This document shows, piece after piece, positions 1 through 52,143 of a stretch of 64,000 nucleotides of DNA. The translations under genes were made by a program, and so were the position numbers. Source of the stretch: an uncultured Flavobacteriales bacterium (lineage in GTDB: Bacteria > Bacteroidota > Bacteroidia > Flavobacteriales_G > Salibacteraceae). The stretch is taken from the NCBI GenBank assembly GCA_943788145.1, contig CALSPD010000029.1:1-64000 (forward strand). The letters run 5' to 3'. How positions within the stretch are numbered: position 1 is the stretch's first letter; the number at the start of each line of letters is the position of its first letter. The notes beneath the pieces are model-generated. The model saw only the letters and a program-made list of their open reading frames with translations, had not been told where the DNA came from and made no database searches.

Positions 1-1993
1 TTATTACTATCAGCACTTAGCATGGCTGCCGCAATAAGCGGTATGAATGCTCATTCCATTATTGAAGTCGACTTTCAAGCTGGAATTCCTTCTGGATGGA
101 CTCAAACTACATTAGCGACTGACGGTGGATGGAATGCAGGAAATGCAACGTCACTATCAAGTTCATATTTTGCGATTACAGAGCATGGAAACTTTATTGG
201 AACTAACGATGACGGATGCAATTGTGACAAATCTGCGGATGTATTGGTTTCTGAAACCATAGATCTGTCGTCATACTCAGGAGAGTCTGTAAGACTTCGA
301 TTCGATTTATTCTTCTTCGAGGGAACGTACCAAGGTGCGACTGAAAGTTTTGAAGTGAAGGCTTCTACGAATGGAGGTTCAACTTGGACAAGCATTTATA
401 CAGCGGCAGGGGCTGCAGATTGGCAAAATGCCATTTTGGTTGATGCATCAGCTTACGCTGGTAACGCCAATGTGAATTGCTTTCGTATATAATGACGGAG
501 CTGGTTGGACGTATGGAGCTGGATTAGATAACGTTGTTGTTGAAATTCCAAATGATCATGACATTAAACTTGTTTCAGTTAAAGTTCCACCTTATTCTGC
601 AACAGATGTTCCTCAAACTGTAACAGGCGTAATTTCAAACCTTGGTGCGAGTGCCGAGAATTCGATTACCGTTTCTTGGACGGATGGAACAACCACGAAG
701 ACTGCTACTTTATCAGGTACACTAAACCCAGGTGAATCTATGAGTTTCACTCACCCTGATGGAATTGCTCTAGCAAGTGGAGCAAGTATTTCAGTCGATG
801 TTACTGCAATGGTTACTGGAGATGCTGATGTAAGCAACAACACGCTTTCTGATTATTCAGTAGACGGAGTTGCATTTTGGCCAACGAAGGCTGTAGTAGG
901 TGAAGAAGCAACAGGTACATGGTGCGGATGGTGCCCACGAGGTATGGTTGGGATGGAATACATGGAAGAGACTTATGAAGATGAATGGATCGGTATAGCA
1001 GTTCACAATAGTGACCCAATGGAAAACGCAGATTACGATACATGGATGGGCGGTCAAATAAGCGGATACCCTAGCGGACTTGTTGATAGAGAGGGAGATA
1101 TTGATCCTGCGGCTGCAACATTAGAAGCTAATTTCCTTGCTGCAATTGAGAAGTTTGGATATGCACGCATAGAAGTAATGCCGTTAATTGATGCAAACGA
1201 TGAGGTTGAGATTCGAGTTCGAACCAAATTTGCGGTTGATATGGATCAAGACATGAGCTTGGCAATTATGATCGTGGAAGATGATTTGACAGGTACTTCA
1301 GCCGATTGGAATCAAACAAACTATTACAGTTTTCAATCTCAAAACTTACCGCTAGTTGGAGCGGGTTTTGATTGGCAAGCTGAAGGCGGTTCTGTTTCTG
1401 GTGTAACATATAATGATGTGGCTCGTGAGGCGCTTTTAGGTGTTGAAGGTGATAATAATATCATCCCAAGTTCTGTAAGTGAGAATGACGTTGTAAGCTA
1501 TACGATGGATAAATTCACTTGGAATGGTGATTATGACAAGGATAACTCAACCATTGTTGTTATGCTTATTGACGATAATTCAGGAGAAATAATCAACGCA
1601 GTAGAATCTCACCTTAAGAACTTGATTATTGTTGAGCAAAATGGAGTGACGTATTATGTGATTGATGGTGATACTTACCAATTGTTTGCTGGAACCGACT
1701 TGGTGCCAACAGGCTTAGCTTCAGTTCCTGCAGTTGAAGATTTGATGGTTTATCCAAACCCAGCTTCTAACAATGTGAAAATTGTAGGTACTGGAATCAC
1801 TAGTGAGTCACAAATCAATGTGTATGACATGACTGGAAGATTAGTTTTGAATCAATCACAATTAGGAATTCAATCTACGAACATGGGTTCTGGTGTCGAA
1901 ATCAATGTATCTAACCTTCCAAATGGAGTGTATAATTTGGTAGTTGATACCGACATAAGGACCATGAAGCAGACGATTTCTGTGATGCACTAG
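1..1993 (+). CDS. T9SS-secreted Omp28/thioredoxin-like protein with cleaved-adhesin-type domain; 5' partial and frameshifted
   Basis: The reading frame is open from base 1, and the first residues look like the end of a signal peptide (LLLSALSMAAAISGMNAHS), so the start lies upstream. Residues up to about base 480 resemble a jelly-roll cleaved-adhesin/MAM-type domain (ends in DNVVVEIP after the shift). A CARDB-like beta domain follows (about 556-860), then an Omp28-type thioredoxin-like core with TGTWCGWCPRG (CGWC codons 923-934). The C-terminus (about 1745-1990) is a T9SS type A sorting domain with VYPNPASNNVKI and a terminal Ig-like fold. At the TTT run 481-483 the frame shifts: removing one T joins the segment ending near base 480 to FVYNDGAGWTYGAG without loss. 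This looks like a sequencing error or a recent mutation. The substrate of the CxxC core is unknown. It is the first of three tandem paralogues. Confidence 0.8.
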
Positions 1994-2019
1994 TCACGAT
2001 TTTCGATAAAAGAAAAATG

Positions 2020-2048
2020 AGCCTCGATCTTTGTATCGGGGCTTTTTT
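2020..2048 (+). terminator. Rho-independent terminator after the first Omp28-like gene
   Basis: The hairpin arms are AGCCTCGAT (2020-2028) and ATCGGGGCT (2035-2043), with one G-T pair, followed by a run of T to 2048. It lies 27 bases after the stop codon. Confidence 0.85.
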
Positions 2049-2150
2049 ATGCCCAATGTGGTTCAATACGTAACTAGGGATTCAATTTGATTCTGTTTGA
2101 TGAATGGAATTATGGTCTTGACGGCTTATATTGGTCCAAAATTTATAAAA

Positions 2151-4238
2151 ATGAAAAAACTATTACTCAGCGCAATTGCCGTTACAGCAGCTCTGACATC
2201 GCTTCAAGCACAGTTCTATGTGATCGAAGAGACAGGGCCAGTTAGCGGGTATGCTTGGGATGGGACAGGAACAACCATCATGGCTTCGCCTAACAACGAT
2301 GTGTATTCATCCATCCAAACACTTCCATTCTCTTGGACATATTACGGTCAAACGGTAACTCAATATATCGCCAGTGATAACGGATATATAACGTTTGAAA
2401 CAGGAGCAACTACAAGCTATAGCGCAAACACTGCAATCCCATCAACTGCAGGACCAAACAATGCTATTTATGCTGCTTGGGATGATTTAAACCTAATCGG
2501 AGCAGGGACACCAGATGTTATAAAGTCTTGGACTTATGGCACTATGCCAAACAGGACACATGTTATTCAATGGCATAGTGTTAATCAAAACGCGGTCACG
2601 AACTCATATTTGTACGCGGCTATCTTAATTCATGAATCTGGCGATTTTGACATCGTTATTCCATGGGCTCAAGGAACTTCAGGAAGCTTCACAATTGGAT
2701 GTGAAGATGCAACAGGCGCTGACGGAATTGAAATCGATGGCAGTCCTAATTATGCTCTTCCCAGCAGTGGGTCAGATCCAGTTGATGATTTAGTTTTTCA
2801 CTTCTTATCTGGAACACAACCAGCAGTTGATCCTAAGCTTAGCTCAGCTATTATACCAGGATTTGCGTCTCCAAGCGGTTCTAGAAACATTACAGGAAAA
2901 GTTCAAAACCTTGGGGCAAACACTTTAAGTTCCTTTGATATTACTTGGACAGATGGATCAATTACTAAAACATATACCGTAAACAATTCGTTAGCAAGCG
3001 GTGCTTCTTACGAGTTTGAGCACCCTGATCAAGTTACTGTAGCGGCTGGCGCGACTTCTAACATTGAAGTAAGTGTCGTTGCGGCTAATGATGCGAATTC
3101 TGCTAATAATACCATCTCCGGAGATGTAGACGGTTTTGTTTTTGTTCCACATAAAGTGGTAGTAGGAGAAGAAGCAACAGGAACATGGTGCGGATGGTGC
3201 CCAAGAGGTATGGTAGGAATGGAGTACATGGAAGAAACCTACGAAGATGATTGGATTGGTATTGCTGTTCATAACAATGATCCCATGGAGAACGCTACAT
3301 ATGACGCCTGGATGGGTGGTAAGATTTCTGGTTACCCTAGTGGATTAGTAGATCGTAAAGCTGATATTGATCCTTCCTCGGCTAGTCTTGAAGCGGCATT
3401 TAACGTAGATATCAATGAGTTTGGCGTAGCAAACATTGAAGTATTGCCTTTAATTGATGAAAATGACGAAGTAGAGATTAGAGTTCGATTTCATTTTGCA
3501 ACAGATTGGTCAGATGATGTCCGAGTTGCTGTAATTATCGCTGAAGATGGACTAACAGGAACGTCTAACGATTGGAGACAAACCAATTATTACAGTTACC
3601 AATCTCAAAACCTTCCTTTAGAAGGAGCAGGTTTTAACTGGCAAGCTGAGCCATCTTATGTAACTGGAGTTACTTATAATGATGTAGGACGTGAGCTATT
3701 GACTGATGTTGATGGAGATAATGACATAATAGAAGCACCTTTCTCTGAAAATCAAGTATTGAATATCACTCTTGATAAATTCACATGGAATAGTGACTAT
3801 GACATGGACAATTCGACCATTATAGTCATGCTTATTGATGATTCCTCTGATGAAATAATCAATGCCGGTGAGTCTCATTTAAAAGATCTTGAAATCGTTG
3901 AACAAAATGGAGTTACTTATTACATTATTGACGGTGATACATTCCAACTTTGGGATGGAACTGATTTAGTTCCAACTGGAATGGCAAACGTTAAGCCGGT
4001 TGATTTGAATGTTAAGGTTTATCCAAACCCATCAAATGGGTTGATCAATGTTGAACTTTCGGAGGCTGCTGAGGTTGTATTGCTCGATATGGCCGGAAGA
4101 GTTGTTGCGCGTTCTAATATATTCGGAACAACAAATATTGTCCAATTCAATGGACAAATTCTTGATGCAGGAGTTTACAATGTTGTAATCAAAACAGAAT
4201 CTGTAACTCAAACAGAGCGAGTTACAATAATCAAATAG
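2151..4238 (+). CDS. T9SS-secreted Omp28/thioredoxin-like protein with nidogen-like N-terminal domain
   Basis: I start the gene at ATG 2151 because MKKLLLSAIAVTAALTSLQA is a clean signal peptide; an in-frame ATG at 2097 would put 18 non-signal residues in front. The protein is 695 aa. Residues about 20-230 form an all-beta region with a nidogen-like look (SDNGYITFE, AIYAAWDDLNL). A CARDB-like domain follows (about 245-335), then the Omp28-type core with VVGEEATGTWCGWCPRG and SGYPSGLVDRK. The protein ends in a T9SS type A sorting domain (VYPNPSNGLINVEL, final VTIIK). The core is nearly identical to the genes on both sides while the N-terminus is unrelated. This supports modular duplication. 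It is expected at the cell surface or secreted through T9SS. CxxC suggests thiol chemistry, but no substrate can be inferred. Confidence 0.85.
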   Translation: MKKLLLSAIAVTAALTSLQAQFYVIEETGPVSGYAWDGTGTTIMASPNNDVYSSIQTLPFSWTYYGQTVTQYIASDNGYITFETGATTSYSANTAIPSTAGPNNAIYAAWDDLNLIGAGTPDVIKSWTYGTMPNRTHVIQWHSVNQNAVTNSYLYAAILIHESGDFDIVIPWAQGTSGSFTIGCEDATGADGIEIDGSPNYALPSSGSDPVDDLVFHFLSGTQPAVDPKLSSAIIPGFASPSGSRNITGKVQNLGANTLSSFDITWTDGSITKTYTVNNSLASGASYEFEHPDQVTVAAGATSNIEVSVVAANDANSANNTISGDVDGFVFVPHKVVVGEEATGTWCGWCPRGMVGMEYMEETYEDDWIGIAVHNNDPMENATYDAWMGGKISGYPSGLVDRKADIDPSSASLEAAFNVDINEFGVANIEVLPLIDENDEVEIRVRFHFATDWSDDVRVAVIIAEDGLTGTSNDWRQTNYYSYQSQNLPLEGAGFNWQAEPSYVTGVTYNDVGRELLTDVDGDNDIIEAPFSENQVLNITLDKFTWNSDYDMDNSTIIVMLIDDSSDEIINAGESHLKDLEIVEQNGVTYYIIDGDTFQLWDGTDLVPTGMANVKPVDLNVKVYPNPSNGLINVELSEAAEVVLLDMAGRVVARSNIFGTTNIVQFNGQILDAGVYNVVIKTESVTQTERVTIIK

Positions 4239-4257
4239 ATTTTAGCCTTGATTTGAA

Positions 4258-4289
4258 AGCCCCATCTGAAACGATGGGGCTTTTTTTTT
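4258..4289 (+). terminator. Rho-independent terminator after the second Omp28-like gene
   Basis: A perfect stem AGCCCCAT (4258-4265) pairs with ATGGGGCT (4274-4281) and is followed by nine T residues. It lies 20 bases past the stop codon. Confidence 0.9.
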
Positions 4290-4319
4290 GCACAACTTGT
4301 TATAATCTTAAGTCACTGG

Positions 4320-4352
4320 TTGTCAATTATTCAAATAACCTTATTACATTGG
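4320..4352 (+). promoter_or_regulatory. Bacteroidota-type promoter for the third Omp28-like gene
   Basis: TACATTGG at 4345-4352 is one base off the Bacteroidota -7 motif TAnnTTTG. A TTG lies 22 bases upstream at 4320-4322. The pair sits 17 bases before ATG 4369 and just downstream of a terminator, so the third paralogue probably has its own promoter. Confidence 0.45.
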
Positions 4353-4368
4353 TGCAAAATATTAAACT

Positions 4369-5838
4369 ATGAAAAAAGCATTACTTCTATCATTAATTAT
4401 TGGAAGCGCAGGTGCTGGAGCTTTTGCTCAGGTAGATGCTAAACTCGTCTCGGTAGAAATCCCTTTCTACGTAAGCCCTGAAGGCTCAGCGAAAATTACT
4501 GGTGTTGTGAAAAACAACGGTTCCAGCGCCTTGTCCAATTTTGATATAAATTGGACAGATGGTTTTAATACATTTAGCTATGAAGTAACTTCTAGCATTG
4601 CGAGCGGTGCGAATTATAACTTCACGTTACCCGATGAAATTACAACCGTACCAGCAGGTTTTTCTGCCAATATAGAGGTAACTGTAGTTGCCGATGGAGA
4701 TGCAGATGCCACCAATAATTCGCTATCAGAGACAGTGGAAGGAATTCCTTTTGTACCTGAAAAAGTTGTTGTTGGTGAGGAAGCCACAGGTACTTGGTGT
4801 GGATGGTGTCCTCGTGGAGCTGTTTGGATGGAGTACATGGAAGAGAATTATCCGGAACAATGGATCGGAATTGCCGTGCACAACAATGATCCAATGGAAA
4901 ATGCAGATTATGACAGCTGGATTGGCGGTGAAATCAGCGGATATCCAAGCGGTTTGGTTGATCGGAAGTCTGACATTGATCCTTCAAATTTTGAGGCTAA
5001 CTTTTTGACAAGTGTTGATGATTTCGGAGTTGCACGTATAAAGGTTGAGCCATTTATTAACGATCAAGACGAAGTATGGATTCGAGTTCGAACACAATTT
5101 GCAAAAGCATCAGATAAATCAATGCGTATTGCAGTTGCACTTGTCGAGGATAATGTCACAGGAACAACCTCAGGTTACAATCAGGCCAATTATTACAGCT
5201 ATCAATCTCAAAACTTACCATTAGTTGGGGCAGGGCACAATTGGCAACAAGAGCCTGTTTATGTTCCTGCTGCTGACATGGTTTATAACGATGTTGCGCG
5301 TGAGCTTTATACCAACGCTAGTGGTGAGTCTGGCAGTATTCCTAGCTCGGTTGCCGCTGAAGAAGTGGTCATTTTTGAAATTGATCCTTTCACTTGGAAT
5401 AGCGATTACAAGAAAGAAGATTCACGCATCGTAGCCATGTTGTTGAACAATTCAAATGGAAACGTAATAAATGCCACAGAATCACACTTAATCGCTTATG
5501 AAGAAGTTGAAGTGGGTGGAACAACGTACTATGTAATCGATGGTGATACTTATTTGATGAGTCCTGAAGGTCAAATTGTTCCTGTTGGAATCGCAAGCGC
5601 ACCAGCAAAAGATCTAAATGTTCAATTGTATCCAAATCCTGCTACGGATATGCTAAACATCAAAGGGTTAAATGGAATTTGCAACGTTGTTGTTTACGAT
5701 ATGAAAGGCTCAGTTGTTCTTAAATCATCTGTAGTTGACAACAGGCTAAACATCGAGTCGCTTCAGGCGGGAGTTTATGCCATTGAAATTGAGAACAAAG
5801 GATTGATTTCAGTGGAGAAATTTACAATACTGAAGTAG
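4369..5838 (+). CDS. T9SS-secreted Omp28/thioredoxin-like protein, short form
   Basis: This 489-aa protein opens with a signal peptide (MKKALLLSLIIGSAGAGAFA). It has no N-terminal adhesin or nidogen-like part. It starts directly with the CARDB-like domain (about residues 22-125, DAKLVSVEIPFYVSPEG), then the thioredoxin-like Omp28 core (KVVVGEEATGTWCGWCPRG, HNNDPMENADYDSW, SGYPSGLVDRK). The T9SS type A sorting domain is at about 415-489 (LYPNPATDMLNIKG). It is the minimal version of the three-gene array and defines the shared unit. The Omp28 family is known as outer-membrane or surface proteins of Bacteroidota. A redox role for CGWC is inferred from the motif only. Confidence 0.87.
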   Translation: MKKALLLSLIIGSAGAGAFAQVDAKLVSVEIPFYVSPEGSAKITGVVKNNGSSALSNFDINWTDGFNTFSYEVTSSIASGANYNFTLPDEITTVPAGFSANIEVTVVADGDADATNNSLSETVEGIPFVPEKVVVGEEATGTWCGWCPRGAVWMEYMEENYPEQWIGIAVHNNDPMENADYDSWIGGEISGYPSGLVDRKSDIDPSNFEANFLTSVDDFGVARIKVEPFINDQDEVWIRVRTQFAKASDKSMRIAVALVEDNVTGTTSGYNQANYYSYQSQNLPLVGAGHNWQQEPVYVPAADMVYNDVARELYTNASGESGSIPSSVAAEEVVIFEIDPFTWNSDYKKEDSRIVAMLLNNSNGNVINATESHLIAYEEVEVGGTTYYVIDGDTYLMSPEGQIVPVGIASAPAKDLNVQLYPNPATDMLNIKGLNGICNVVVYDMKGSVVLKSSVVDNRLNIESLQAGVYAIEIENKGLISVEKFTILK

Positions 5839-40379: not shown

Positions 40380-40442
40380 GGAATCGAACCCCCGACCTCA
40401 GGGTTATGAATCCTGCGCTCTAACCGTCTGAGCTACCTCGCC
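40369..40442 (-). tRNA. tRNA-Met (CAU)
   Basis: The minus strand gives a 74-base cloverleaf: acceptor GGCGAGG/CTTCGCT with a G1-U72 pair, D-arm AGCTCAGACGGTTAGAGC, anticodon loop TTCATAA (CAU), variable AGGTC, T-arm GGGGGTTCGATTCCCCC, discriminator A. CCA is not encoded. It lacks initiator features, so elongator Met is most likely; tRNA-Ile2 with modified CAU is less likely given its similarity to Bacteroidota elongator Met genes. Confidence 0.95.
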
Positions 40443-40454
40443 AATTAGCGGGTG

Positions 40455-40462
40455 CAAATATA
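40455..40462 (-). promoter_or_regulatory. -7 promoter element of tRNA-Met
   Basis: On the minus strand TATATTTG is an exact TAnnTTTG match, followed by CACC, 12 bases upstream of the tRNA 5' end. A -33 element at good spacing is not clear. Confidence 0.6.
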
Positions 40463-40492
40463 ATTTTAGCATCAATTAAAACCAGTCAAAAT

Positions 40493-40522
40493 AAAAAAGC
40501 CCTAATCAATTTGATCAAGGCT
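40493..40522 (-). terminator. Terminator after lpd
   Basis: On the minus strand AGCCTTGATCA pairs with TTGATTAGGGCT allowing G-T pairs (40498-40522), followed by six T residues. It lies 20 bases after the lpd stop codon and upstream of the tRNA promoter. Confidence 0.7.
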
Positions 40523-40542
40523 TTCTAATTTATTAGTGAGTT

Positions 40543-41937
40543 CTATAGGTGAATAACCTCATCATAAGCCGCAGCGGCAGCTTCCATAATGGCTTCACTC
40601 ATAGTTGGGTGTGGGTGCACTGTTTTGATCAACTCGTGACCTGTTGTCTCAAGTTTTCGAACGGCGACCAACTCAGCAACCAATTCAGTCACGTTGGCTA
40701 ACCGATCATATGGCCTCCAAGAGTTCACCGTACTTCGCGTCAAAAATTAGTTTGACAAAACCATCTGAGTGACCTGAGGCTTTCGCCTTTCCAGATGCGC
40801 TGAAAGGGAATTTTCCGACTTTCAATTCGTATCCAGCCTCTTTTGCTGCTTTTTCTGTCATACCAACGCTTGCAACTTCTGGTGAGCAATACGTGCATCC
40901 TGGGATGTTTCCGTAATCTAAGTGCGTCAGGAGATTGACCTGCAATTTTTTCAACACAAATAATTCCTTCAGCTGATGCTACGTGCGCTAGTGCTTGACC
41001 TGGCACACAGTCGCCAATAGCGAATACACCGGGATGTTGGTCTCATAGTATTCGTTTACCATGATCTTTCCTCGATCGGTGGCAACTCCAACATCCTCTA
41101 AGTCCTATGTTCTTCAATGTTCGCAACAATTCCTACTGCCGAAAGAACTACATCACATTCAATAGTTGCCTTCTGCCTTTTTTGTCTTTGTAATTAACCG
41201 TGCAACCTTTCGCGGAAGTTTTTACCTCAGTAACCTCGGTGCCGGTCATAACACTCATTCCAGACTTCTTGAAGCTTCGTGCCAAGTTGCTTGCTTACTT
41301 CTTCGTCTTCAACTGGAACAATGTTGTCTAAGTATTCGATAAGCGTAACCTCTGTGCCCAGTGTCTGATAGAAATATGCAAACTCAGAACCGATGGCGCC
41401 GGATCCCATAACAACCATTTTCTTTGGTTGGGTTGGAAGGGTCATTGCTTCGCGATATCCAATAATCTTTTTACCGTCTTGCTTAATGTGAGGAAGCTCT
41501 CTGGATCGAGCACCCGTTGCAACGATGATGCTTTTCGCAGTCACCTCTTTTGACTTGCCTTTGTCATCGGTCACCTCAAGTTTACCTGCAGCCTTCAGCT
41601 TGCCTGTACCAATGATCACTTCGATTTTATTCTTTTTCATGAGAAACTCTACGCCCTTACTCATGCTTCCAGCAACATCTCGACTTCTGCCAACAATGGC
41701 ACTTGAAATCCGCTTTATGATCTGAAACGGTAATGCCGTAGTCTCCAGCATGATTAAATAATCAAACACTTGAGCGCTTTTAGCAAGTGCTTTTGTTGGA
41801 ATACATCCCCAGTTTAAGCAAATTCCGCCAAGCGATTCGCGCTCAACGATTGCTGTTTTCAAGCCAAGTTGCGAGGCTCTAATGGCTGCTACGTATCCGC
41901 CAGGTCCGCTTCCTAATACTATTAGATCAAAATCCAT
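40543..41937 (-). CDS. lpdA: Dihydrolipoyl dehydrogenase with multiple frame disruptions
   Basis: Lpd is the FAD-dependent E3 component that reoxidises lipoyl groups of 2-oxoacid dehydrogenase complexes. The first 225 codons (41937 to about 41265) are intact: FAD loop GSGPGGYVAAIRASQLG, redox disulfide GGICLNWGCIPTKA (Cys40, Cys45), VATGARSREL, NAD loop GSGAIGSEFAYF. The last part encodes TVHPHPTMSEAIMEAAAAAY with the catalytic His-Glu. Between about 41265 and 40690 the frame changes about eight times by one- or two-base gains and losses. Yet every piece read in the right frame is family-like (AIGDCVPGQALAHVASAEG, GCTYCSPEVASVGMTE). The total span of 465 codons is the normal Lpd length. I favour local sequencing errors over a true pseudogene. 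Confidence 0.85.
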
Positions 41938-45932: not shown

Positions 45933-48239
45933 TTAAATCGCAATTTTTTGCAATCTAATTTTTACCAATTTACTTGTTGGAGTGTTGGATTTGTCCGCAA
46001 CGGAATCGATAGGGACCAAAACATTTGTTTCAGGAAAGTAGGTGACCGTACATTGACTTGGCACATCATAAGGAATTACTAAAAACCTGGGAGCGATACG
46101 TTTTACACCATTATGCTCGTTTATTAAATCGACTACATCGCCTTTTGATAATCCTTCGTTTTGTATGTCCTGGAGATTCATGAGAATAACTCTGCGTTCG
46201 TTAAAAACACCTCGATAGCGGTCATTAAGTCCGTAAATGGTCGTATTGAATTGATCATGCGTTCGAACGGTAGTCATAATGAACTCGCCTTTTTCCAGTG
46301 CATTATCGGGTACTGGGTTAACACTGAATTTGGCCCGACCGCCTAAAACGTCAAAGTCACCTTCACGGGCATTATTAGGAAGGTAGAATCCGTTTGGTTC
46401 ACGAACCCGCTCATTGTAATGTTCGAAACCGGGGATTACCATCTCAATCTTATCACGAATCGCATCATAATTGTCTTTCAATTTATCCCAATCGATGTTG
46501 GGATTAGGATGCAGGGTTGCTTTGGCGATTCCTGCGATAATAGCTGGTTCGCTCATGAGGGTTCTTGCTAAGGGTTTCAACCGTCCTTCGCTTGTATGAA
46601 CGATTCCCATAGAGTTCTCAACCGTTACAAACTGTTTTCCTGATTTTTGAATATCGATATCTGAACGCCCCAGACTGGGGAGGATAATCGCCCGCTTTCC
46701 CGTTACTAAATGCGATCGATTCAATTTGGTGCTCACATGAACTGTGAGGCTGCAATTCCTTAGCGCCTGAGCCGTGAATGTGGTGTCAGGTGTAGCGGAA
46801 AGGAAATTACCGCCCATTCCAATAAATACTTTGCCTTTTTCCTCGTGCATTTTCTTGATGCAATCTACTACATCGAGCCCATGATTCCTTGGTGCTTTGA
46901 AGTCAAAAACTTCTTCTAGTTTATCAAGAAAGGCTGCTTTTGGCTTCTCCCATATACCCATTGTTCGATCGCCCTGAACATTGCTGTGGCCGCGCACTGG
47001 GCAGGTTCCAGCACCAGGTTTGCCGATGCTTCCTTTAGCTAAAAGGAGATTTACAACTTCTTGGATGTTGCCAACGCCATTTTTATGTTGGGTTAAGCCC
47101 ATGGCCCAACATGCGATAATTTTTGAAGTTGACGCCAGCATTTCAGCCGCTTCATGGATTTGATCGGTCGAGATACCACAAGCCTTGCTAAGTTTAGCTA
47201 GGTCGTATGCTTCGATTGACGAAATAAACGCTTCAAAGCCCTCGGTTTTTGTATGAATGAAATCAGCGTCAAATACCTTACCTGGATTTTCCCTTTCCTT
47301 TGCGCAGAGTAGCTTTAATATCGCTTTCAATAGTGCTACGTCTCCATTAATTTTTACTTGGAGGAAAAGATCCGTTAGGGCAGTTCCTTCGCCCAAAACA
47401 TCACCTATACTTTGCGGGTCTTTGAAGCGAATCAACCCGGTTTCGGGAAGGGGATTGATGGTTATGATTTTAGCTCCATTTTGTTTGGCTTTTTTCAGTG
47501 CATTGAGCATTCGAGGATGATTTGTGCCTGGGTTTTGACCGATCACTAGGATGACTTCGGCCTCATCAAAATCCTCTAAAGTCACGGAACCTTTTCCTAT
47601 CCCAACGGTCTCGCTAAGCGCGACTCCACTGCTTTCGTGGCACATATTGCTGCAATCAGGTAAATTGTTCGTACCAAACATTCGTACAAATAACTGATAC
47701 ATGAAGGCAGCTTCATTGCTCGTGCGCCCAGAGGTGTAGAATATGGCATCGTCCGGACAGGGGAGTTGATTAAGCTCTTTGCCTATGATTTTAAATGCTT
47801 CTTCCCATGAGATAGGGCTGTAGTGTTCAGCGCCCTCTTCAAGTAACATGGGTTCGATAATTCGACCGCGCTTTCCGATCCAAAAGTCACTTTGAGCCGC
47901 TAATTGAGATAGACTATTTTTTTGAAAGAAATCTGGATCAAGGCGTTTTGTAGTAGCTTCTTCAGCAATTGCCTTTGCGCCATTCTCACAGTATTCGCCC
48001 AACTTTGATCGGTGATCTGAAGGGTCTGGCCATGCACAACCAGGACAGTCGATTCCTCCCTTTTGATTCAGTTCAAACATGACTTTTGTTGCGCGCACAG
48101 GATCCATTTCATCCATAAGGTGGCGAACCGCACTGAAAACAGCTGGAAGCCCAGCTGCCGTGTGTTTTGGACTCGTTAACTTTACCCCAGTAAAAGATTC
48201 TGGGGTCAACTCATTATGATTTTCCTTCCTTTTGGTCAT
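45933..48239 (-). CDS. FdhF/YdeP-type molybdopterin oxidoreductase
   Basis: The 768-aa protein matches the YdeP branch of the formate-dehydrogenase-like bis-MGD enzymes. It has GGIDCPGCAWPDP near residue 61 (Cys65, Cys68), ISWEEAFKIIGKEL, FYTSGRTSNEAAFMYQLFVR, and CSNMCHESSGVALSETVGIG. GQNPGTNHPRMLNALKKAK and the C-terminal MGD-binding region (RTHDQFNTTIYGLNDRYRG) follow. It has no separate electron-transfer subunit nearby, and the substrate of YdeP-type enzymes is not established. It is the last gene of the fdhD-DUF7009-ydeP unit, one base after the preceding stop codon. FdhD encoded upstream would be its sulfuration partner. Confidence 0.9.
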   Translation of the reverse strand: MTKRKENHNELTPESFTGVKLTSPKHTAAGLPAVFSAVRHLMDEMDPVRATKVMFELNQKGGIDCPGCAWPDPSDHRSKLGEYCENGAKAIAEEATTKRLDPDFFQKNSLSQLAAQSDFWIGKRGRIIEPMLLEEGAEHYSPISWEEAFKIIGKELNQLPCPDDAIFYTSGRTSNEAAFMYQLFVRMFGTNNLPDCSNMCHESSGVALSETVGIGKGSVTLEDFDEAEVILVIGQNPGTNHPRMLNALKKAKQNGAKIITINPLPETGLIRFKDPQSIGDVLGEGTALTDLFLQVKINGDVALLKAILKLLCAKERENPGKVFDADFIHTKTEGFEAFISSIEAYDLAKLSKACGISTDQIHEAAEMLASTSKIIACWAMGLTQHKNGVGNIQEVVNLLLAKGSIGKPGAGTCPVRGHSNVQGDRTMGIWEKPKAAFLDKLEEVFDFKAPRNHGLDVVDCIKKMHEEKGKVFIGMGGNFLSATPDTTFTAQALRNCSLTVHVSTKLNRSHLVTGKRAIILPSLGRSDIDIQKSGKQFVTVENSMGIVHTSEGRLKPLARTLMSEPAIIAGIAKATLHPNPNIDWDKLKDNYDAIRDKIEMVIPGFEHYNERVREPNGFYLPNNAREGDFDVLGGRAKFSVNPVPDNALEKGEFIMTTVRTHDQFNTTIYGLNDRYRGVFNERRVILMNLQDIQNEGLSKGDVVDLINEHNGVKRIAPRFLVIPYDVPSQCTVTYFPETNVLVPIDSVADKSNTPTSKLVKIRLQKIAI

Positions 48240-48240
48240 A

Positions 48241-48612
48241 CTAACAATTGCTTAGCGGGTTAGGAAAATTGTCCGATTCATCTTCGTCCTCTCGCGCAGT
48301 TAAACAGGCAAAATCTTTCTCTATCAGCAATTTCAACGTTTGACCGTGCTCCAGGTTAAATTCGCTTGAAACCCCGACTTCAGAAGGGGATAACCATTTT
48401 TTACCTGTCGAAAAAGGAACACTAACCTTTATCACATCGGCCGTATAATCAATATCGAAGGTTTCGGTCTTATTCCATATTAAGAAATACTTCAAGGAAT
48501 TGCCATTCGGAAAAGAAATGCTCGATTCTACGACTCCAACTTCTTGAAATTTATTGACTTCTGATTGGGTTAGTCGGAGTCGAAGAGAATTATCTTTTAT
48601 TCGAATTTTCAT
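48241..48612 (-). CDS. DUF7009-like small protein of the molybdoenzyme operon
   Basis: The 123-aa protein starts MKIRIKDNSLRLRLTQSEV and ends FACLTAREDEDESDNFPNP plus a final Cys. I recall this pattern as DUF7009, found beside fdhD in Bacteroidota, but the name is from memory. It is predicted soluble and mostly beta. It overlaps fdhD by 4 bases and sits one base ahead of the oxidoreductase gene, so it is tightly coupled to both and may help maturation. The two acidic residues and the two cysteines near the C-terminus are its most notable features. Confidence 0.7.
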   Translation of the reverse strand: MKIRIKDNSLRLRLTQSEVNKFQEVGVVESSISFPNGNSLKYFLIWNKTETFDIDYTADVIKVSVPFSTGKKWLSPSEVGVSSEFNLEHGQTLKLLIEKDFACLTAREDEDESDNFPNPLSNC

Positions 48613-49448
48613 AAAATGCGTTCGCTGTGTGTGTAGACATTAAAAGATTGAGCTTTTGTAAAGCCAATCAAAGTTATTCCAAATTTACTCGCAGTCTCAA
48701 TAGCTAAGCTGGAAGGCGCGCCCACAGAAACCACAAATGGAATTGTTGCTGCAATTGATTTTTGAATCAGTTCGAAACAACTGCGTCCGCTTAACATGAC
48801 GATATGGTCTTGGAGCGGGATGATTTTTTTGAAAAAAGCAGCACCAATAACTTTGTCCAAGGCATTATGCCTTCCGATGTCTTCTCGGAGGAAAATTAAG
48901 TCGCCCTTTTTGTTGAAAATAGCCGCTGCGTGTAATCCTCCGGTATGTTCAAAGACTCCTTGGGCTTCACGCATTTTAGCATTCAAGCTTGAAATGATGG
49001 CAGAATCTACTTTGACCTCAGAATGAACGGGAGTAAAACACATCTGCTCTAAACTTTCAATGCTGGCCTTACCGCAGATTCCACAACTACTATTCGTGTA
49101 AAAATGCCGTTGAAAGCGCCCCCAATCAAGGCTGATTTCAGGCTTAATTTCTGCTCGGACTATATTTTCACTTCGCTCCCCTTTTTTATCGGTGCAGTGC
49201 TCCAAGTGAAAAATATCGTCCATGTTCTGAATGATACCTTCTGTAAACAAAAAGCCAAGAACCAGCTCCAAGTCATGACCCGGAGTGCGCATTGTGATGG
49301 ACAAACTGCGTTGCTCTCTTTGCTTCTCAGGTCCAAATCCAAGACGAATTTCCAGCGGCTCTTCAACTGTAACGACATCGATTACTTCAACACATCCCTT
49401 ATCACCAAAGCGTTTTATTGAGACTGGAATTGCTGAAGCTTTTGTCAT
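48609..49448 (-). CDS. fdhD: Formate dehydrogenase accessory sulfurtransferase FdhD
   Basis: FdhD carries sulfur from a cysteine desulfurase to the molybdenum centre of formate-dehydrogenase-like enzymes. The 279-aa protein has the cysteine loop NSSCGICGKASIE (CxxC) at about residues 118-130. EDIGRHNALDKVIGAA and MLSGRSCFELIQKS mark the nucleotide-binding C-terminal half, together with VGAPSSLAIETASKFGITL. It heads the tight operon with the DUF7009-like and YdeP-type genes. A cysteine desulfurase is encoded in the window at 27873-29015 but not linked. Confidence 0.94.
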   Translation of the reverse strand: MTKASAIPVSIKRFGDKGCVEVIDVVTVEEPLEIRLGFGPEKQREQRSLSITMRTPGHDLELVLGFLFTEGIIQNMDDIFHLEHCTDKKGERSENIVRAEIKPEISLDWGRFQRHFYTNSSCGICGKASIESLEQMCFTPVHSEVKVDSAIISSLNAKMREAQGVFEHTGGLHAAAIFNKKGDLIFLREDIGRHNALDKVIGAAFFKKIIPLQDHIVMLSGRSCFELIQKSIAATIPFVVSVGAPSSLAIETASKFGITLIGFTKAQSFNVYTHSERIL

Positions 49449-49490
49449 CGCACAAATGTGTTGAATTCAAACAGAACTTAACTTCGCATC

Positions 49491-49601
49491 ATGAATTTAT
49501 TAAAAGAGCTCTGGGGAAAGTATGGTGGTTTCTTCCTTGATATTTGGCAGTACCTGCTCATCATTGTCATTGTTTTCATTGGCCTTTTAATCGTTCTTTA
49601 A
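49491..49601 (+). CDS. Possible 36-aa single-span membrane protein
   Basis: ATG 49491 opens MNLLKELWGKYGGFFLDIWQ followed by a strongly hydrophobic helix (YLLIIVIVFIGLLIVL) ending at TAA 49601. It lies in the only gap of the minus-strand molybdenum cluster, divergent from fdhD, and overlaps the 3' end of the NTPase-MobA gene by 26 bases. A TAACTTCG element (49479-49486) resembles the -7 motif just upstream. The amphipathic start plus one hydrophobic span is typical of real small membrane proteins. Without comparison it remains a prediction. Confidence 0.4.
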   Translation: MNLLKELWGKYGGFFLDIWQYLLIIVIVFIGLLIVL

Positions 49602-50646
49602 TCGATGCGAAATCGGCTGCTGTATTAACATTCACGAATACTTCATCGTCAAATTCAACAACATTCACATTTTCTCGATTCAATAGTTTTGTTAGAGAAT
49701 ATGACCCACTTTCTATTGCGAGGTTTATTTCAGATAGTGCCGATCGATTCCAAATAGAAAGTAAGGGTTCGATTTGTTTTTTTGATTTCGACTTTGCACA
49801 AGTTGCTATTCCGTTTTTATCATGTTCGCGAATTAACCGGTCGATGACAGCGATATTAATCAGAGGCATATCGCAGGCCAGAAAAACTATCGAATCAGAC
49901 CCAAATTCGCTAAAAGCGCTCGCAATTCCGCCAATCGGACCAATTTCTTCAAAGTGGTCAACAATATAGGACTCGTTCAAAAACTCCGCAGTTTGATGGG
50001 GATTAATCGAAAAGTGAATGTTTGAAAACCAAGGAGTCATTCGATTTTTCAGAGCCATCCAGGCCTTCCCTTTTCCATAGTTTAACGAATGCTTGTCTTG
50101 CCCCATGCGCTTGCTTTGGCCACCTGTCATAATAACGAGCGGAGGTCGATCTGTTTCGAATATGCTTTGGTCGATAGTCACCGGTCGATTTAGTTGATAT
50201 TTCAGCTTAACTTCTTCCAATAGAAAATCTCGGACGACTAGGATTAAAACATGTGTTTTTGATTGATGTAAGTTCGTTAGAATTCGCTCAATCGAAGACG
50301 AAAGGCCTTGATCTCTTAGTTCTAGTTTACCTATTTCATCGATGATGAAAACATCTGCTTCTTTATCGCCAGCTTTAGAAATGATTTCATCGGCTCGATT
50401 GAAGGCAATTTGAGAAAACTTATATTTCCCAATCTCCACCGTATCAGCGGGTGAGAGTGGATTTGATTTAAAGGATTCGAAAGTCGGTAGCTCAATAAAC
50501 ACCTTTTCTGCGTAGATACTCGGGTTTATTATCCCTGCACAACGAAGTCTGCTTGAATTTAGCTTACACCAATTCAATAATGCTGTTGACTTTCCAGTAT
50601 GAATCGGCCCTGATAGAATTAAAATTTCAGGATTCATATAGTCCAT
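49576..50646 (-). CDS. Fusion of a P-loop NTPase (THEP1/MobB-like) with a MobA-like guanylyltransferase
   Basis: The 356-aa protein has two parts. Residues about 6-165 form a small NTPase with LSGPIHTGKSTALLNW (Walker A, 12-27) and ADVFIIDEIGKLELRD (Walker B, 97-112), as in the nucleoside-triphosphatase THEP1 group. Residues about 168-356 are MobA-like: VIMTGGQSKRMGQDKH (172-187), EIGPIGGIASAF, FLACDMPLI and a late VNVNTAADF. MobA transfers GMP to molybdopterin to give MGD, the form used by the nearby YdeP-type enzyme. The NTPase could play the role of MobB or energise the upstream membrane protein. The start overlaps that gene by 20 bases; a second Met at residue 4 is also possible. Confidence 0.82.
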   Translation of the reverse strand: MDYMNPEILILSGPIHTGKSTALLNWCKLNSSRLRCAGIINPSIYAEKVFIELPTFESFKSNPLSPADTVEIGKYKFSQIAFNRADEIISKAGDKEADVFIIDEIGKLELRDQGLSSSIERILTNLHQSKTHVLILVVRDFLLEEVKLKYQLNRPVTIDQSIFETDRPPLVIMTGGQSKRMGQDKHSLNYGKGKAWMALKNRMTPWFSNIHFSINPHQTAEFLNESYIVDHFEEIGPIGGIASAFSEFGSDSIVFLACDMPLINIAVIDRLIREHDKNGIATCAKSKSKKQIEPLLSIWNRSALSEINLAIESGSYSLTKLLNRENVNVVEFDDEVFVNVNTAADFASIKERLKGQ

Positions 50647-51649
50647 ATGAAATAAGAAGTAGGAGGAAATTATTAATTCGAAAACCCTTCATTGAAGATG
50701 ATGTTTTCCATGCGCTTTTTGCAAAATGCGCCAACTTAGGAATGTTTTGCTTTATCATCTCAAGTTGTGTCAAGTCGATTTTATTTTTTTTCACAACCGT
50801 TGCAACAAACCAGTGAAACAGGGGTTGAAGAATAAAAACCCAGCTCGCAACGATGGTGATGGTTCGAATCAACTGATTGATGGAAGCTTCCTCTGAAATG
50901 AATGCATATTCGAGAATAAAAGCCACGATTAGTAAGAGTATATAAATCGCGATTAGATGCCAGGCCTTTTTCTTAGTTTCATGCTTGTCGCCATGTTCAA
51001 TTTGAATGTTACCAATGATCTCCTGAATCTCGATGGATCGATTTTGCAAGTTTTTTGGAAAGTTACCTGCAATAATGCCGATAATTATTCCTCCGATTGC
51101 GTACACACAAACAAAGCCGATCGCAATTGCCATTGCCGATGAAAAGGAGGGAAGCCAGTTTAAATTCATGAGCTTTTCGGCTGTTGAAACAACAAATTCG
51201 TCAATGGCTTGAAAAAATGATGTACCAAAAACAATGACCAGCACTAGGATTTTTTGCACTGCAGATGAAACCGTAGCAATTAATCCCGTGAAGAGGGAAG
51301 CAATTTTATGATTGGGAATCACACCAAAGAAAAGGCTGCCCAATAAGGCTTGAACGGAAACCGCGACATACGCACCAATTGGTGAATGTGGGCTAACAAG
51401 CGCCTTAATCAGTAACACGAAAACCGCAGATTTTAAAATTGTTTGAGCGACAGATCCAGCTGTTTTCAAATAATTACCTTGACTTAAAGCTCGAGCTTGG
51501 AACGCGATTAATGCTATAAAAACTATAGACAAACCGCCAACAACGAGTCCAGTAAATGGTGAGTGTAGGGCATGTAAAATGCCTCCCAAACCAGATTCAG
51601 ATATTGCCCAAAGCATAGTAATCCGTTCGATACTCAAATTTTGCTTCAT
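50627..51649 (-). CDS. Uncharacterised polytopic membrane protein linked to NTPase-MobA
   Basis: I start at ATG 51649 (MKQNLSIERITMLWAISESG) because it follows a TACTTTGG promoter-like element and gives a sensible N-terminus; the frame is open from a TTG at 51691. The 340-aa protein has about seven to eight hydrophobic segments and a soluble loop at about residues 210-235. The pattern GLGGILHALHSPFTGLVVGG and LVSPHSPIGAYVAVSVQALL recalls S-component-like small-molecule transporters, but I cannot name the family. Translational overlap with the NTPase-MobA gene implies a joint task. A transporter for molybdate or a cofactor precursor is speculation. Confidence 0.75.
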   Translation of the reverse strand: MKQNLSIERITMLWAISESGLGGILHALHSPFTGLVVGGLSIVFIALIAFQARALSQGNYLKTAGSVAQTILKSAVFVLLIKALVSPHSPIGAYVAVSVQALLGSLFFGVIPNHKIASLFTGLIATVSSAVQKILVLVIVFGTSFFQAIDEFVVSTAEKLMNLNWLPSFSSAMAIAIGFVCVYAIGGIIIGIIAGNFPKNLQNRSIEIQEIIGNIQIEHGDKHETKKKAWHLIAIYILLLIVAFILEYAFISEEASINQLIRTITIVASWVFILQPLFHWFVATVVKKNKIDLTQLEMIKQNIPKLAHFAKSAWKTSSSMKGFRINNFLLLLISYGLYES

Positions 51650-51690: not shown

Positions 51691-52143
51691 ATGACGCAGA
51701 ACACGAAAGTCGAATTACACGAAAAGATGGTTTCGAGACTTAAGAGCCGGATCGAGCAATTGCTATTCGATTTAGAAGAAAAGAGGCAGGATATAAATGA
51801 TCAGAGCAAAAACTCAGCGGGTGATAAGCATGAAGTTGGCAGAGCCATGGCTTATATAGAAATTGAAAAACTAACCCAACAACTGGAACTCAATAAAAAA
51901 ATGCTTTTTGAGCTAGGTGAAGTCGATCAAAAAGCCTCTGCTCTAATTGCAAAAGGCAGTTTAATCGAAACGAATAGAGGTCGGTTCTTTGCTTCAATTG
52001 CTTATGGTAAGATTGAGCATCAGGGCGATACTTATTTCGCAGCGTCAACATCCAGTCCGCTCATCTCAAGTATGCTGGGCAAGCGAGTAGGAGACCTGGT
52101 AAGTTTTAATGGAGTTGACTATAAAATTGAGGCCATCTGGTAA
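51691..52143 (+). CDS. GreA/GreB-like elongation-factor homologue
   Basis: The 150-aa protein has an N-terminal helical hairpin (residues about 5-85, KMVSRLKSRIEQLLFDLEEK, EIEKLTQQLELNKKMLFELG) and a C-terminal beta domain (about 90-150, ALIAKGSLIETNRGRFFAS, SSPLISSMLGKRVGDLVSF). The last is the FKBP-like fold of Gre factors with its typical SPLGRALLGK-like turn. The hairpin lacks a clear acidic tip pair, so RNA-cleavage activity is uncertain. Such proteins in Bacteroidota are sometimes mislabelled 3-oxoacyl-ACP synthase. It is divergent from the membrane protein gene and directly abuts the convergent FKBP gene. Confidence 0.8.
   Translation: MTQNTKVELHEKMVSRLKSRIEQLLFDLEEKRQDINDQSKNSAGDKHEVGRAMAYIEIEKLTQQLELNKKMLFELGEVDQKASALIAKGSLIETNRGRFFASIAYGKIEHQGDTYFAASTSSPLISSMLGKRVGDLVSFNGVDYKIEAIW

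Follow-up and report, generated by a model that had tools for sequence, protein, structure and literature searches.

Introduction

Some bacteria carry enzymes that depend on the molybdenum cofactor (Moco) and have no complete pathway for making it. In the part of their survey considered here, Peng et al. 2018 counted 305 such bacteria among about 5900 organisms, and offered as explanations biosynthetic parts that are still unknown or molybdenum-independent enzymes; cofactor import is unmentioned in that part (PMC6147048). The nematode Caenorhabditis elegans takes up mature Moco, by a membrane route that is unknown (PMC9793310). Our search of open-licence papers turned up no described Moco importer of bacteria. 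Here we analyze a five-gene operon in a 64,000-nucleotide stretch (the window) of contig CALSPD010000029.1, from an uncultured Flavobacteriales bacterium. It encodes a membrane protein, which we call MEM, a fusion of a THEP1-type NTPase with a MobA-like domain, FdhD, a DUF7009 protein and a YdeP-family molybdoenzyme. From comparison of genomes and predicted structures, we judge with a probability of about two in three that this operon is a Moco salvage system. The comparison covers gene content and order, the lack of detectable MoaA, MoaC and MoeA, an S-component-like fold, the pairing or fusion of MEM with the NTPase, the linkage with three enzyme families and the lack of ModB; from it we infer transport itself, its direction, its cargo, the role of nucleoside triphosphate hydrolysis and the part played by DUF7009.

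The described systems nearest to this locus each resemble it in part. The "orphan molybdoprotein" bacteria, as portrayed in the part of Peng et al. 2018 used here, also have enzymes of the dimethyl sulfoxide (DMSO) reductase and xanthine oxidase families, an incomplete Moco pathway and mostly no known molybdenum transporters (PMC6147048). C. elegans likewise uses ready-made Moco of other organisms, but it is an animal with its own Moco pathway, and no homology to the MEM system is claimed (PMC9793310). The energy-coupling factor (ECF) transporters for vitamins (YkoE, RibU, FolT; EcfT; EcfA/A') share with the MEM module a predicted S-like fold, a second membrane domain adjoining or fused to it, and a nucleotide-hydrolysing partner. 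The MEM module differs in having a THEP1-type NTPase and no ATPase of the ATP-binding cassette (ABC) type, in the fusion of its S and T parts, and in its proposed cargo, Moco; moreover, the likeness of its T part to EcfT is not significant (Pfam match of an approximately 182-aa homologue to CbiQ, E=0.53). ModABC, WtpABC and TupABC are also associated with molybdoenzymes in genomes, but their proteins are unrelated to MEM, ModB is over its cut-off in none of the MEM genomes (below), and most MEM carriers lack a pathway that could use molybdate. The NTPase domain scores over the cut-off of the THEP1/NTPase_1 profile (PF03266) and has its GK[ST] and D[ED]xGxLE motifs, but in this system it accompanies a transporter-like protein or MobA, in some cases within one fused chain. 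Bifunctional MobA/MobB proteins also fuse a P-loop NTPase domain to a MobA guanylyltransferase domain; the P-loop part in the window, however, matches NTPase_1 and not MobB, the arrangement in relatives is opposite or separate, and the domain travels with MEM even where MobA is missing.

Absence of the early Moco pathway in most MEM carriers

MobA attaches the nucleotide to the cofactor, FdhD sulfurates it, and MoeA is responsible for molybdenum insertion. In the window's own genome (G000; 2.89 Mb, 86.6% complete), profile searches, on which all genome-wide absence calls in this work depend, detected no MoeA, no MoaA and no MoaC. The sole PF00994 match there is an open reading frame (ORF) of 429 aa, which is the length of CinA; matches to this family were mostly ORFs of about 420 aa, which we take from length alone to be CinA and did not count as MoeA or MogA. 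Applied to 14 control genomes, the same Moco-pathway models recovered what they were meant to find in 11, and 223 of the 395 genomes of our phylum set had MoeA. It means that the absence searches work.

The same loss was found in other carriers. MoaC was detected in none of 28 MEM genomes preselected for lacking MoaA or MoeA, 25 of which are at least 90% complete. In an independent set of 48 genomes collected by MEM similarity alone, 42 were without MoaC; alignment A1 served as query for this set, and the window MEM as a lone query in the contig scan had given no match. The MoaC-negative carriers include two complete chromosomes, CP012155 (Bacteroidetes bacterium UKL13-3) and CP075895 (Chitinophagaceae bacterium LGM1). 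Because the absence is the same in genomes at least 90% complete and in complete chromosomes, incompleteness is not its explanation.

MEM relatives were present in 32 of the 395 phylum genomes, and in 10 of the 149 genomes of a set of relatives. The association of MEM with missing pathway genes recurs in several families and within one genus. Among phylum genomes with a bis-molybdopterin guanine dinucleotide (bis-MGD) enzyme, MoeA was found in 157 of 166 without MEM versus 10 of 21 with it (p=2e-7), and among MoeA-negative genomes MEM was found in 11 of 20 with a bis-MGD-type enzyme versus 9 of 152 without one (p=2.5e-7); both tests ignore kinship. In the genus of the window's bacterium, G000, G002, G004 and G006 have MEM and neither MoaA nor MoaC, while G001 has no MEM and carries MoaA twice, together with MoeA, MoaC and MoaE-like genes beside NarGHJI (neighbours except MoaA identified by eye).

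Molybdoenzymes persist in these genomes. Half of the preselected MEM genomes (14/28) had enzymes of the xanthine oxidase family, and others had bis-MGD-type enzymes. A clear case is G259, a single contig estimated at 99% completeness, which has MEM and is without MoaA, MoaC and MoeA. It encodes a periplasmic nitrate reductase (L054), an enzyme of the NarG type together with partner subunits, and a xanthine dehydrogenase/Ygf cluster, and its MEM-NTPase genes adjoin a MobA-like gene and a Phs-type operon.

Membrane protein MEM and its NTPase partner

MEM had no significant match in Pfam or NCBIfam. In six loci with Nap/Nar-like operons (L053, L054, L055, L071, L077 and L078), a homologue of its N-terminal half, about 200 aa long, is followed by a separate membrane protein of about 182 aa and then by a TonB-dependent receptor, and in three of the six the NTPase gene also follows. 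The C-terminal half of MEM is homologous to that approximately 182-aa protein (hhalign E=1.2e-6, probability 90.8). Passage of the same cargo across the outer membrane may be the task of this receptor.

The AlphaFold2 model of the window MEM had a mean confidence (pLDDT) of 88, and in full length it gave no significant Foldseek match; therefore a single-domain homologue was used for the fold search. The model of the short N-half homologue of L053 (pLDDT 93.8) found as its best match in the PDB the ECF S component YkoE (5edl), with a Foldseek probability of 1.00, TM scores of 0.63/0.64 and an E-value of 0.02, which is of low significance. The S components RibU and FolT stood lower in the match list, with TM scores of 0.5-0.6. 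Pfam gave weak S-component matches, to ABC_cobalt (E=0.002) and Trep_Strep (E=0.008). PDB chains searched by sequence, once with the S alignment and once with the NTPase domain, yielded nothing useful. The S-component fold is thus predicted from a homologue of low identity, L053, and not from the full-length window model.

Across 80 homologues, W14, E18, GG22-23, H26, K82, P87, Q100, Q132 and G142 are invariant in the S half of MEM. The polar ones among them (E18, H26, K82, Q100 and Q132) gather in this half, as would be expected of a putative ligand site. We name the protein S-like plus T-like and do not file it as an ECF transporter, because a THEP1-type NTPase stands in for the ABC ATPases that define those transporters.

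This NTPase is encoded by the next gene after MEM in 71 of 79 loci, overlapping it in most, and in L051 and L052, from two genomes, a single chain holds the S-like, T-like and NTPase parts and no ABC domain. Both GK[ST] and D[ED]xGxLE were conserved in 71 of 72 NTPase homologues, whereas the full Walker A pattern, which requires the first Gly, matched 29 of the 72. It means that this Gly is often substituted.

As a separate observation, a gene of about 105 aa resembling carboxymuconolactone decarboxylase (AhpD-like by eye) adjoins MEM in one genome family (L058, L060, L061, L062, L064, L066, L068 and L073).

Gene neighbours and probable cargo

The earlier note on this DNA described the locus as a molybdenum-cofactor module with MEM and the DUF7009 protein as members, and proposed that it would fail if these two were common without molybdoenzymes. 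This was not what was found: a Moco-related gene lies beside MEM in 67 of the 80 GTDB loci with MEM homologues, and DUF7009 occurred in 14 of 39 molybdoenzyme-positive genomes versus none of 39 without MoeA or a bis-MGD enzyme (p=3e-5). The notion that MEM might occur solely with YdeP and FdhD did not hold, as it also accompanies nitrate reductases and enzymes of the Phs, xanthine dehydrogenase and sulfite oxidase types.

Three enzyme families are covered by these neighbours. DMSO-reductase-type genes or FdhD were found in 35 of the 80 loci, every one with MobA; xanthine-oxidase-type genes in 12, of which some had MocA or XdhC and none had MobA; and sulfite-oxidase-type genes in four, with no nucleotidyltransferase; the identities of the seeds behind these counts were checked. 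The nucleotidyltransferase tracks the enzyme family, and MEM-NTPase is constant. The simplest cargo is therefore the precursor common to all families, and judging from these gene neighbourhoods it is probably Mo-molybdopterin. With a molybdenum-free pterin as cargo, MoeA would still be needed. Molybdate would require the whole pathway, and ModB exceeded its cut-off in none of the 32 MEM genomes of the phylum set versus 132 of the 363 others; in G000 ModB had no match. Only ModB matches over the cut-off were counted; at E≤0.001 the model TIGR02141 was unspecific, with matches in 336 of 395 genomes and 14 of 14 controls.

The DUF7009 gene often stands beside FdhD or YdeP, also in genomes without MEM. 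This presence without MEM and the distribution given above make it an accessory of Moco enzymes and not of import. In addition, it adjoins a MobA-like gene in L169 and an ORF that by eye looks like MoaA in L171, and these neighbours suggest a wider Moco role for DUF7009.

Proposed mechanism and its weighing

According to our proposal, MEM, with its S-like and T-like parts in one chain, and the THEP1-type NTPase would import ready-made Mo-molybdopterin from outside, and nucleoside triphosphate hydrolysis would power or gate the uptake. The MobA domain, which shares one protein with the NTPase, would add GMP, so that the cofactor is committed and trapped as (bis-)MGD. FdhD would then sulfurate it, and YdeP would receive it, perhaps helped by the DUF7009 protein. 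The cell would thereby be spared making the cofactor or inserting molybdenum. The earlier note saw the late steps packaged together with their target enzyme, and these are indeed present; it missed the absent de novo pathway and the likeness to ECF importers, which would put import and salvage first.

A wider claim, which we hold a little less firmly but still consider probable from the genomic patterns, is that Moco-auxotrophic Bacteroidota and relatives live by a dedicated importer of intact Moco, which would join an ECF-type S domain to a coupling domain within one chain and take its drive from a THEP1-family NTPase. Their molybdoenzymes, of all three families, would run on scavenged cofactor; in the operon of the window, uptake would be physically coupled to MobA, and the imported cofactor would be trapped by nucleotide attachment.

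Several points weigh against salvage. We know of no role of THEP1-type NTPases in driving transport. Free Moco is labile and would require some natural carrier or donor. No TonB receptor gene lies within the operon locus of the window, and on the structural side the L053 match is of low significance and the full-length model has none. G000 itself is incomplete. The pathway is also not lost everywhere: MoaC is retained in 6 of the 48 unselected MEM genomes and MoeA in 12 of the 32 in the phylum set, which means that the importer would be a supplement in some carriers. Furthermore, the association tests across the phylum take no account of kinship. Nine MoeA-negative genomes had bis-MGD-type matches without MEM, some of them incomplete or weak; an exception among them is G489, a genome 98% complete with two convincing and apparently complete bis-MGD-type operons (L181 and L182), no MoeA match and no MEM. 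Its operons suggest another route of import or synthesis. Finally, four MEM genomes had no enzyme of the bis-MGD or xanthine oxidase type, the two types screened.

If salvage is true, it would explain how many bacteria hold molybdenum enzymes without a cofactor pathway, and genomes read as having non-functional molybdoenzymes would need a new reading. Like the B vitamins, Moco would then count among the goods that microbial communities share. A role would also be given to a transporter-like family that is nameless in Pfam and NCBIfam, and to its NTPase partner. Since MEM-NTPase is a conserved pair in such genomes, it makes both the orphan-molybdoprotein puzzle and the uptake seen in C. elegans testable.

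Alternative explanations

MEM and the NTPase could import molybdate in place of ModABC, with the cofactor then made by the usual pathway, and we consider this unlikely. The linkage to all Moco enzyme families would fit, as would the absence of ModB from the 32 MEM genomes without exception; in the 12 of these that have MoeA, molybdate import could be the true function. However, salvage predicts the absence of ModB equally, most MEM genomes are without MoaA, MoaC and MoeA and so are unable to use molybdate, and the nearest folds are vitamin S components and not oxyanion permeases. A plain molybdate-transporter reading, based on the NTPase partner and the Moco linkage, was downgraded after MoaA, MoaC and MoeA were found absent.

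It is distinctly unlikely, in our view, that MEM and the NTPase belong to a non-homologous pathway of Moco synthesis, for example as a membrane-bound molybdenum insertase or chaperone, with no import at all. Such a pathway would have to substitute simultaneously for three or more unrelated steps, yet the conserved set consists of a membrane protein and an NTPase only, and the S-component-like fold and the TonB-receptor linkage indicate uptake. The NTPase-MobA fusion would suit an assembly line, and new biosynthetic components for organisms with orphan molybdoproteins are among the proposals in the part of Peng et al. 2018 considered here (PMC6147048).

Another small nutrient or pterin, such as a thiamine-like, folate-like or other vitamin, is a very improbable cargo. 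S components and the nearest structures carry vitamins, the weak Pfam match is to the YkoE family, and in 13 of the 80 loci no Moco gene is near MEM. The Moco link would then be indirect, whereas Moco genes of three enzyme families are present in the other 67 loci and, among genomes with molybdoenzymes, the distribution of MEM tracks the loss of Moco synthesis.

That this is an ordinary late-step Moco cluster, with the early moa/moe genes in the unassembled 13% of G000 (86.6% complete) and MEM incidental, is scarcely credible, given the same absence in genomes 94-100% complete and in two complete chromosomes and the repeated linkage of MEM to Moco genes.

Operon structure and other features of the window

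The five ORFs occupy positions 51649 to 45933 of the minus strand, in the order MEM, NTPase-MobA, FdhD, DUF7009 and YdeP (Table 1). MEM and NTPase-MobA overlap by 20 bp; after a gap of 127 bp, FdhD and DUF7009 overlap by 4 bp, and 1 bp separates DUF7009 from YdeP. The tight one-strand arrangement given in the earlier note agrees with these ORFs, coordinates and gaps. The operon order is repeated at the same chromosomal position, between conserved neighbours, in G004 and G006, and also in G002, there on a 5.5-kb contig without YdeP; the operon is therefore neither chance nor contamination. NTPase and MobA are fused in the window and in many relatives, and are separate overlapping genes in G002, G004 and G006. 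Among cultured bacteria, Kaistella jeonii DSM 17048 (L105) carries the full module.

Table 1. Features of the operon, with positions in the window; paired bit scores are those of the match versus the profile cut-off.
Feature	Position	Strand	Basis or remark
MEM, 340 aa, proposed Moco importer	50627..51649	-	ATG start; in-frame TTG at 51691
S-like half of MEM, about residues 1-205	51035..51649	-	Alignment to short S-like proteins of Nap operons
T-like half of MEM, about residues 222-340	50627..50986	-	Two long helices and C-terminal amphipathic helices; hhalign
NTPase-MobA fusion protein, whole gene	49576..50646	-	ORF
THEP1-type NTPase domain (PF03266), proposed energiser or gate of MEM	50152..50646	-	49.5 vs 23.9 bits
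MobA-like guanylyltransferase domain	49576..50151	-	PF12804, 91.2 vs 27 bits; GGQSKRMG motif
FdhD sulfurtransferase, sole copy in G000	48609..49448	-	NF001943, 280.9 vs 269 bits; CGICGK motif
DUF7009 protein, 123 aa, accessory of Moco enzymes	48241..48612	-	PF22668, 126.7 vs 27 bits, full length
FdhF/YdeP-family molybdoenzyme, 768 aa, presumed cofactor recipient	45933..48239	-	TIGR01701, 906.8 vs 582.15 bits

The NTPase domain in the window has the motifs GPIHTGKST and DEIGKLEL. The MobA domain stays under every MobA equivalog cut-off (for TIGR02665, 99.5 vs 151.85). FdhD also exceeds the cut-off of a second profile (TIGR00129, 171.1 vs 140.9). The YdeP-family enzyme is under the equivalog cut-off for Escherichia coli YdeP (NF007406, 717 vs 1473). 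It aligns to solved relatives that are formate dehydrogenases, and its NMCHE stretch faces their active-site region.

Two further observations concern other parts of the window. At 740-5838 on the plus strand there are three consecutive paralogous secreted proteins with a common GEEATGTWCGWCPRG motif and C-terminal sorting-like repeats. At 40400-41937 on the minus strand, a gene resembling dihydrolipoamide dehydrogenase keeps an open frame for only 236 aa, and its remainder lies in other reading frames. It is thus frameshifted several times, either as a pseudogene or through assembly errors.

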